Below, in pieces: positions 1-5,632 of a stretch of DNA of 5,632 nucleotides (position 1 is its first letter; every line of letters begins with the position of its first letter). The stretch lies in the NCBI GenBank assembly GCA_029210545.1, contig JARGFV010000139.1:1-5632 (forward strand), read 5' to 3'. The notes beneath the pieces were generated by a model, which did no database searches, had not been told where the DNA came from, and saw only the letters and a list, made by a program, of their open reading frames with translations. The position numbers and the translations under genes are program-made. This DNA is from a bacterium (GTDB lineage Bacteria; BMS3Abin14).

Positions 1-26
1 TGTCGCCCCCTTGCAAAAGTTGAAGT

Positions 27-72
27 AGGGGACATTTGTAACTTGGACAGAGGGGACATTACTACTTTGGAC
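27..72. repeat. Two-copy 24-bp tandem repeat (GGGGACATT / TTGGAC)
   Basis: Two copies lie end to end, at 27-50 and 51-72. Each has AGGGGACATT at its start and TTGGAC near its end, exactly 24 bp apart between copies. The 6-7 bp between these blocks differ. Upstream, TGTCGCCCC at 1-9 is a near inverted match to the GGGGACA at 28-34, so the whole 1-72 segment could be the edge of an inverted or tandem array that continues outside the window. From memory, GGGGACATT-type repeats often lie beside transposase or integrase genes in deltaproteobacterial genomes. No such gene is visible here, so the mobile link is inference. Confidence 0.6.
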
Positions 73-4502: not shown

Positions 4503-5202
4503 GGCCGAGAAGATCGAATCAGGTTACGGACCGATGCAGGTCCTCTGGGGCCCGAATGTCGAGGTCAAGGCCGGAACCATCACGTCCCTGCTCGGACCCA
4601 ACGGGTCAGGAAAGTCGACCCTCCTCTGGACCATCCTGGGATCGGTCAAGGCCCGGAGCGGGACGGTGACATACGAGGGAAATGACGTCACCACCCTGCC
4701 GCCCCACAAGAAGGTTGACCTTGGGCTCACCATGGTCCCTGAAGGAAAACACCTGTTCAAGGAGATGACCGTTTACGACAACCTCATCATGGGCGCTTAT
4801 CGCAAGGAGGCCCAGGCGGTCAGGGAAGAGAACCTCGAGCTCGTTTACTCCATGTTCCCCATATTGAAGGAGAGACACATCCAGAAAGCCGGATCCCTTT
4901 CAGGGGGGCAGCAGCAGATGGTCACCATCGGCAGGGCGCTCATGACCAGGCCCAAGCTCATCATGATGGACGAACCCAGTCAGGGACTGGCTCCCAAACT
5001 TGTTCACGAGATCTTCGAGACCATCGAGAAGATGAAGGAGGATGTCGGCCTGACGATCCTCCTGGTGGAGCAGAACGCGGCCGCGTCCCTGAGCGCGGCT
5101 GACTACGTTTACGTCATGCACGAGGGCAGTATCAAGGCCGAGGGAACACCGGACGAGATCAAGGGGAGTGATGAGATCAAGGAGGCGTACCTGGGGATGT
5201 AG
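4495..5202 (+). CDS. livF: Branched-chain amino acid-type ABC transporter ATP-binding protein LivF
   Basis: This 235-aa cytoplasmic ATPase is the partner of LivG and close to the E. coli LivF length (237 aa). Motifs are Walker A GPNGSGKS (34-41), VPEG (81-84) in the Q-loop region, a canonical signature LSGGQ (135-139), Walker B LIMMDE (155-160) with catalytic E160, and D-loop SQGLAPK (162-168). The switch position holds Gln (Q193 in LLVEQN) and not His, which is typical of LivF. It ends AYLGM, as the family usually does. In the LivG-LivF dimer its LSGGQ completes the ATP site built on LivG, while its own Walker motifs face LivG's degenerate LTPIE. The last base of the TAG stop is the first base of a GTTTAC repeat array. 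Confidence 0.95.
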   Translation: MLKAEKIESGYGPMQVLWGPNVEVKAGTITSLLGPNGSGKSTLLWTILGSVKARSGTVTYEGNDVTTLPPHKKVDLGLTMVPEGKHLFKEMTVYDNLIMGAYRKEAQAVREENLELVYSMFPILKERHIQKAGSLSGGQQQMVTIGRALMTRPKLIMMDEPSQGLAPKLVHEIFETIEKMKEDVGLTILLVEQNAAASLSAADYVYVMHEGSIKAEGTPDEIKGSDEIKEAYLGM

Positions 5203-5236
5203 TTTACGGTTTACAGTTTACGGTTTACAGTTAACC
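5202..5236. repeat. Tandem array of 7-bp GTTTAC-type units (left end of repeat element)
   Basis: Five 7-bp units follow one another: GTTTACG, GTTTACA, GTTTACG, GTTTACA and GTTAACC. The alternation of G and A gives a 14-bp period that is exact over 5202-5229. The first base is shared with the livF stop codon. Related units in inverted orientation occur at 5387-5414. Confidence 0.85.
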
Positions 5237-5246
5237 GTTGATAGGG

Positions 5247-5335
5247 TCGCGAAAAGTCCAGTCAAGACTTTTCCTGGTTCATTGATTTGGGCACCCCGCG
5301 CGGGGCGCGTTGATGGACTTTTTGCGAGTCCATCA
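5247..5335. repeat. Internal hairpins of the element with an alternative long-range pairing
   Basis: Local hairpin A pairs 5251-5258 with 5266-5273 (GAAAAGTC/GACTTTTC, 7-nt loop). Local hairpin B pairs 5311-5319 with 5327-5335 (TGATGGACT/AGTCCATCA, 7-nt loop). Between them lies the palindrome CCCCGCGCGGGG (5294-5305). Alternatively, 5247-5260 (TCGCGAAAAGTCCA) pairs with 5314-5327 at 13 of 14 positions, which would melt both local hairpins and enclose the palindrome. Confidence 0.7.
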
Positions 5336-5355
5336 CCATTTACAGTCAGATCGTA

Positions 5356-5382
5356 GCGCCGGCCGATGGCCGGCGCATTTTT
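5356..5382 (+). terminator. Likely intrinsic terminator of livHMGF, inside the repeat element
   Basis: GCGCCGGCC at 5356-5364 pairs perfectly with GGCCGGCGC at 5368-5376 around a 3-nt loop (GAT). An A and five T residues follow (5377-5382). It is the only hairpin with a T run between livF and the pseudopilin gene, 154 nt after the livF stop. Confidence 0.75.
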
Positions 5383-5414
5383 GTACTGTTAACCGTATAC
5401 CGTGAACTGTAAAC

Positions 5415-5514
5415 AGCCGGAGTTGGATTCCAGCACCAGATATTTTATGGTATTCATAAAAAATGATGCCAGCACGAAAAGCCTCTACACATCGTAATGG
5501 ATCCAACTCCGGCT
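5415..5514. repeat. Perfect 14-bp inverted repeat bracketing the pseudopilin start codon
   Basis: AGCCGGAGTTGGAT at 5415-5428 is the exact reverse complement of ATCCAACTCCGGCT at 5501-5514. The 72-bp interval holds the whole translation start region, and the right arm lies in the coding sequence just before the prepilin cleavage site. The left arm begins directly after the last base of the repeat element (5414). Confidence 0.9.
5443..5461 (+). other. AT-rich hairpin directly upstream of the pseudopilin ATG
   Basis: TTTTATG (5443-5449) pairs exactly with CATAAAA (5455-5461) around a GTATT loop and ends one base before the ATG at 5463. It sits where a ribosome binding site should be, and no purine-rich site is seen. 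It is nested in the 14-bp inverted repeat. The sequence could also carry a weak promoter: TTGGAT at 5423 and TATGGT at 5446, 17 bp apart. Confidence 0.5.
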
Positions 5515-5632
5515 TTACACTCATCGAAGTCATGACCGCGGTGACCATCCTCGCACTCATGGCCGCCATGACCTTTACGGTGGTCTTCGGCGCCGTTAAG
5601 CGCTCCCGGGTCATCGACGCGCGGTCCGAGCT
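5463..5632 (+). CDS. Type II secretion/type IV pilus-like pseudopilin, N-terminal part (runs off window)
   Basis: The frame opens after TAA at 5457-5459 and continues past the window end, giving 56 complete codons. It begins MMPARKASTHRNGSNSG followed by FTLIEVM. This is a class III (prepilin) signal: a short basic leader ending in G17, F18 at +1 and E22 at +5, followed by a hydrophobic helix (about 18-44) and then basic residues (KRSR). Prepilin peptidase (PilD/GspO type) should cut after G17 and methylate F18. The mature protein would join a periplasmic pseudopilus or pilus. The helix loosely recalls GspJ-like minor pseudopilins, but subtype cannot be decided from this fragment. Start is 5463 or the adjacent 5466. 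No clear ribosome binding site precedes it, and the start lies between the arms of an inverted repeat. Confidence 0.8.
   Translation, partial: MMPARKASTHRNGSNSGFTLIEVMTAVTILALMAAMTFTVVFGAVKRSRVIDARSE

Follow-up and report, generated by a model that had tools for sequence, protein, structure and literature searches.

The window, the whole stretch of DNA analysed here, is an entire contig of 5632 bases from a 2.72-Mb assembly of 241 contigs (genome G000). Towards its 3' end, an operon assigned through Pfam to a branched-chain amino-acid type ABC transporter is followed by a pseudopilin gene with its ATG at 5463, which runs past the contig end, so that only its start lies in the window. On its domain matches the gene is a GspJ-type pseudopilin, with N_methyl found in the window part and T2SSJ in a full-length orthologue (PF11612, 1.2e-7, above the Pfam cut-off). 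The same orthologue scored 35.2 bits with the TIGR01711 equivalog, below the cut-off of 64.85, and the gene is therefore called 'GspJ-type' only. From the stop codon of the ABC gene, the order in the 5' to 3' direction is a 7-mer array, a dispersed element, a terminator, an inverted 7-mer array, the left arm of an inverted repeat, a promoter-like stretch and the ATG, as follows.

5201–5238, plus strand: tandem array of 7-mers of the TTTACGG/TTTACAG type, a direct repeat that begins where the ABC gene ends, at its stop codon.
5239–5342, no strand assigned: core of a dispersed repeat element with the hairpin TCGCRAAAAGTCCA...TGGACTTTTTGCGA; the genome has dozens of copies of the element.
5356–5376, plus strand: intrinsic terminator predicted for the ABC-transporter operon 5' of it; the syntenic genome G002 has a similar stem and T run in the corresponding position.
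5385–5414, minus strand: second 7-mer array, inverted relative to 5201–5238; the inverted pair is 87% complementary.
5415–5428, plus strand: left arm, the reverse complement of pseudopilin codons 13–18; 5430–5432 give three more pairs.
5448–5456, plus strand: extended −10 element TGG TATTCA, 6 nt before the ATG; its kind and place are conserved in five genera (aligned by eye).
5463–5630, plus strand: start of the GspJ-type minor pseudopilin gene, with the prepilin leader MMPARKASTHRNGSNSG/FTLIEV (PF07963 N_methyl, 4.4e-8), truncated by the contig end.
5501–5514, plus strand: right arm, within the prepilin-leader codons; 5498–5500 give three more pairs.

The dispersed element has 48 matches in its own genome, mostly to window positions 5276–5340. 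Several contigs of the assembly begin or finish at a copy of the element (window 5239–5342), so that it probably breaks the assembly. The contig start (window 1–72) carries GGGGACATT...GGGGACATTACTACTTTGGAC, which resembles another repeated motif. A viral origin of the pseudopilin gene was considered and rejected, no relative being found among viral contigs; the scan of genome contigs for relatives returned mostly distant pseudopilins.

An earlier note on this DNA had described a perfect 14-bp inverted repeat around the pseudopilin start, and the repeat search confirmed it: 5415–5428 and 5501–5514 are 14 nt long, 100% complementary and 72 nt apart. The RNA fold reaches 17 pairs, with T5429 bulged and the stem extended by 5430–5432 pairing with 5498–5500, and a stem as stable (z = −5.1) was found in 0/200 shuffles. 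The complementarity to codons 13–18 is likewise correct: the right arm takes in the third base of codon 13, all of codons 14–17 and the first base of codon 18. The Markov null yields about 0.7 repeats of this kind (arm ≥14 nt, loop 20–200) per 950 kb and hence about 0.004 per window-sized stretch, in agreement with the previous estimate of below 1 in 100 per window. Although coincidences turn up in long searches, this low expectation and the separate repeats at orthologous gspJ genes make a chance match hardly credible. The arm sequence occurs at these two sites only in the 2.72-Mb genome, which rules out the left arm as a piece of the dispersed element. The left arm does abut a repeat at 5414/5415, and what adjoins it is the end of the 7-mer array at 5414. 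The reported lack of a Shine-Dalgarno site before the ATG also held, and the 7-bp AT hairpin at 5443–5461 is present, but it coincides with the −10 region (5451–5456).

Elements of the −10 type end 6 nt before the ATG in the window (TGG TATTCA), G003 (TGG TATCTT), G008 (TGG TATTGT) and G006 (TGA TATTGT), and the element of G002 (TGC TATTCT) ends 8 nt before it. That five genera conserve an extended −10 element 6–8 nt before the ATG suggests that the transcript should begin inside the loop. Transcription of gspJ is thus predicted to start at or very near the ATG, and from the same element the mRNA is expected to be leaderless or nearly so, with its promoter in the loop. The left arm lies over the −35 region, 5' of the predicted transcript. 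The terminator at 5356–5376, between the ABC operon and the arm, limits read-through toward the arm, and a scan with one consensus gave no sigma-70-type promoter match between the terminator and the left arm. Since the −10 element is in the loop and a terminator precedes the arm, the left arm is not expected on normal transcripts. The earlier proposal that the stem gates pseudopilin translation is therefore disfavoured. Moreover, two orthologues that have the same promoter (G002 and G006) lack the repeat, which argues against a regulatory stem. A routine gate on gspJ translation is not supported, given a promoter in the loop and an mRNA expected to be leaderless or nearly so.

The comparison set comprised the phylum's twelve genomes, all of one family, and relatives carrying the repeat were compared in small stretches of genome. 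Because a duplex-energy score favours long loose pairings and failed to part signal from noise, a stem-run score was used instead. A strong stem between the upstream region and the prepilin-leader codons was found in 3/10 gspJ-type orthologues of the family (window, G003 and G008), each matched by 0/300 shuffles. The upstream partner starts 37–48 nt before the ATG, with left arms at −48, −43 and −37 in the three genomes, the loops measure 72, 45 and 50 nt, and the stems of G003 and G008 have 13–14 pairs. The arm sequences at the three loci (AGCCGGAGTTGGAT, CACAGTGCTGGA and GATTCTCCATCCGG) are unrelated. In G002 the ABC operon still stands beside gspJ, with 77% identity over 3.9 kb and a terminator-like stem, and the intergenic sequence before gspJ contains no array, element or arm. 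A second gspJ-leader copy in G008 (L096, G008:C1:528536) is 90% identical to that at L093, up to a run of N, and may be a scaffolded sister-strain piece; the two copies have the same arms in the same orientation.

The repeat in the window belongs to a larger set. In 950 kb of G000 (L129–L180, with gene calls from a simple hexamer score), 12 inverted repeats with low-copy arms of 14 nt or more and loops of 20–200 were found, against 0.7 in the Markov null, and many of them adjoin degenerate 7-bp arrays. Arrays of period 7 numbered 165 in this sequence (two of them runs of N) against 2 in the null; 46 arrays had period 8, 21 had period 9 and few had other short periods. At the array borders we counted inverted copies of the border segment of at least 12 nt within about 200 nt outward, after removal of repeated and array-like arms. 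Such copies occurred at 20/593 borders, where shifted controls gave an expectation of 2.9, and with a loop of at least 20 the count was 9 against 1.5; some short-loop cases may be ordinary terminators. Direct copies were found once, with 0.5 expected, and a looser count gave 27 inverted copies against 4.4 and 2 direct copies against 4.4. The array at 5385–5414 is itself too degenerate for the detector behind these statistics. Of the border cases, those at L141 and L174 are at gene starts and those at L160, L165, L140 and L171 at gene ends. As long-loop cases occur at both, the class is not confined to translation starts, and a mutational process fits this better than a translation device. In another genus (g5), the association with array borders was absent from G009 (0/116 borders) and weak if any in G004 (3 against 1.4 expected), at array densities of 35 and 83 per Mb, respectively, compared with 172 in G000.

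The degenerate 7-bp arrays of G000 (about 172 per Mb in L129–L180) consist of many unrelated heptamers and are mostly intergenic. Among neighbouring arrays less than 400 bp apart, 13/66 pairs were similar in inverted and 3 in direct orientation. At each end of one array (L171:11365–11436), the border carries a reverse-complement copy of adjacent DNA. In the leader of another prepilin-type gene (L149:3830–3917), a 17-bp inverted repeat immediately follows an array of the same GTTTAC type. At L138:783–892, both arms of a 14-bp inverted repeat lie within a phosphodiesterase-like coding sequence, with no adjoining array.

Three further genes show how long such repeats last. Around the start of dapF, G000 has a 22-bp perfect inverted repeat (L177:1405–1475), which brackets the stretch preceding the start and has its right arm within codons 1–8. 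It can be aligned in G011 and G003, with 59/60 cells of 20 pairs paired across the three genomes (98.3%), and it is absent from G008 and G006. Three of the 20 pairs differ on both sides, a count based on three sequences only and reached by 20/500 shuffles. The queT repeat, of 16 bp in G000 and 12 bp in G003, ends just before or at the ATG, with a common core and one paired difference, and none was found in G008. The zwf repeat occurs in G000 only. G-U and A-C mismatches in imperfect arms were counted by eye and amounted to few cases. The distribution at dapF, queT and zwf indicates that the repeats outlast an unmaintained scar, yet come and go. The earlier note had proposed to look for compensatory change between the arms at pseudopilin loci of relatives. 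Paired change between genera was seen at dapF, in three sequences; at gspJ the arms of G003 and G008 are unrelated to those of the window.

As an explanation we favour, with confidence a little short of even, that the left arm was copied from the coding arm, and is occasionally re-matched to it, by replication template switching at the array edge. The edge of a 7-mer array would be a likely stall site, at which the nascent strand could briefly copy itself or the sister strand. The left arm would then be a reverse complement of nearby coding DNA laid down by such a switch, the same process would now and then restore its match to the coding arm, and it would belong to a class of edge hairpins found throughout the genome in this lineage. 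Template switching would explain why the copies are inverted only and the arms short, why they lie at array edges and at both gene ends, and why covariation goes together with frequent loss. It is known to make and maintain hairpins (PMC8794818) and to homogenise their arms (PMC8604942). The hairpins described here resemble those attributed to template switching (PMC8794818), including quasipalindrome mutation in E. coli (PMC7202029), in being short reverse-complement copies of nearby DNA. Such switching also gives multi-base compensatory change without a requirement for selection, to which the three double changes at dapF may correspond. The hairpins here differ in being tied to 7-mer array edges in one bacterial lineage, and the mutation itself is proposed from sequence.

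One competing account is a selected RNA stem, in which read-through transcripts from 5' of 5415 would fold back and hide the start codon, and the arms would covary because pairing matters. It explains the covariation as well as template switching does. The stable fold (z −5.1), the stems of G003 and G008 at the same gene, the double changes at dapF (hairpin z −6.6 to −8.3) and a likely ribosome site in the right arm of queT in two genomes agree with it. Furthermore, equivalent repeats at 3/10 gspJ orthologues exceed what independent rare events readily yield, which leaves room for selection. In the transposase mRNAs of IS10 and IS50, fold-back inhibition operates through a stem that hides the start codon. 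The likeness lies in a start codon enclosed by a stem formed only in read-through transcripts; here, however, the gene is a secretion gene, a terminator lies upstream and the left arm is outside the likely transcript. A selected stem also leaves the same repeat class at gene ends unexplained, and the conserved −10 element in the loop, the terminator 5' of the arm and the orthologues with the same promoter and no repeat (G002, G006) count against it. Rfam gave no known RNA family in the window or at the dapF and queT loci, and one tRNA only. We consider this account unlikely, while giving it appreciable weight. The idea of a scar, also raised in the earlier note, holds in part: the edges of 7-mer arrays are enriched in reverse-complement copies of the DNA beside them, the left arm adjoins an array end, and G002, with its genes in the same order, lacks both array and repeat. 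It is nevertheless improbable that a single insertion or rearrangement of the element left a scar that was not maintained: the dapF arms should have decayed, but still match, with paired changes, although the gene region has diverged by about 30%, and repeats of different sequence occur at gspJ in two relatives.

Recombination between the arms could instead flip the 72-bp segment with promoter and start, which would turn gspJ off or give it a new leader peptide. At each of the three gspJ loci the arms lie on either side of promoter and start codon, as inverted repeats do at the invertible promoter of C. difficile cwpV (PMC2784873), and the flipped loop gives an in-frame ATG into the prepilin in 3/3 (in the window, MNTIKYLVLESNSGFTLIEV). 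The chance of this is about 0.18 × 0.13 × 0.11, or about 0.0025 if the three are independent, but it was noticed after the fact, with a test devised once the data had been seen. Unlike the sites of one recombinase, the arms differ wholly between relatives, are not common to loci and, in the window, are unique in the genome. No recombinase is among the Pfam-scanned genes of the window, both G008 copies have one orientation, and many sister repeats have loops that are too short or lie around gene ends. An invertible segment is accordingly quite improbable. A regulator with two binding sites, the first over the −35 region and the second in the early codons, would suit left arms lying over the −35 region in three genomes, but the sites have no sequence in common between species and the inter-arm distances differ; we regard this as very improbable.

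The arrays themselves have counterparts. In the consulted parts of the respective papers, the heptameric intergenic repeats of Xanthomonas and Nostoc (PMC4692102) and the TAACTGA repeats of Beggiatoaceae (PMC4679880) also have a 7-bp unit and an intergenic position, and inverted pairs are reported in Xanthomonas (PMC4692102). Here, by contrast, many different heptamers occur in one genome, and those parts of the two papers hold no mention of array edges that carry reverse-complement copies of the genes beside them.

Beyond the single locus, template switching suggests a more tentative reading, in which the 7-mer arrays of this lineage cause the ends of nearby genes to be copied again and again as reverse complements. 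Starts and stops would be kept in self-renewing hairpins, whose covarying stems would mimic selected RNA and may at times be recruited for regulation. Covariation is usually taken as proof that an RNA stem is functional, but if template switching renews the arms, it would appear here without function, and at gene starts and stops. This lineage would then be a natural setting in which to learn what makes 7-bp arrays grow and how they give rise to inverted copying.
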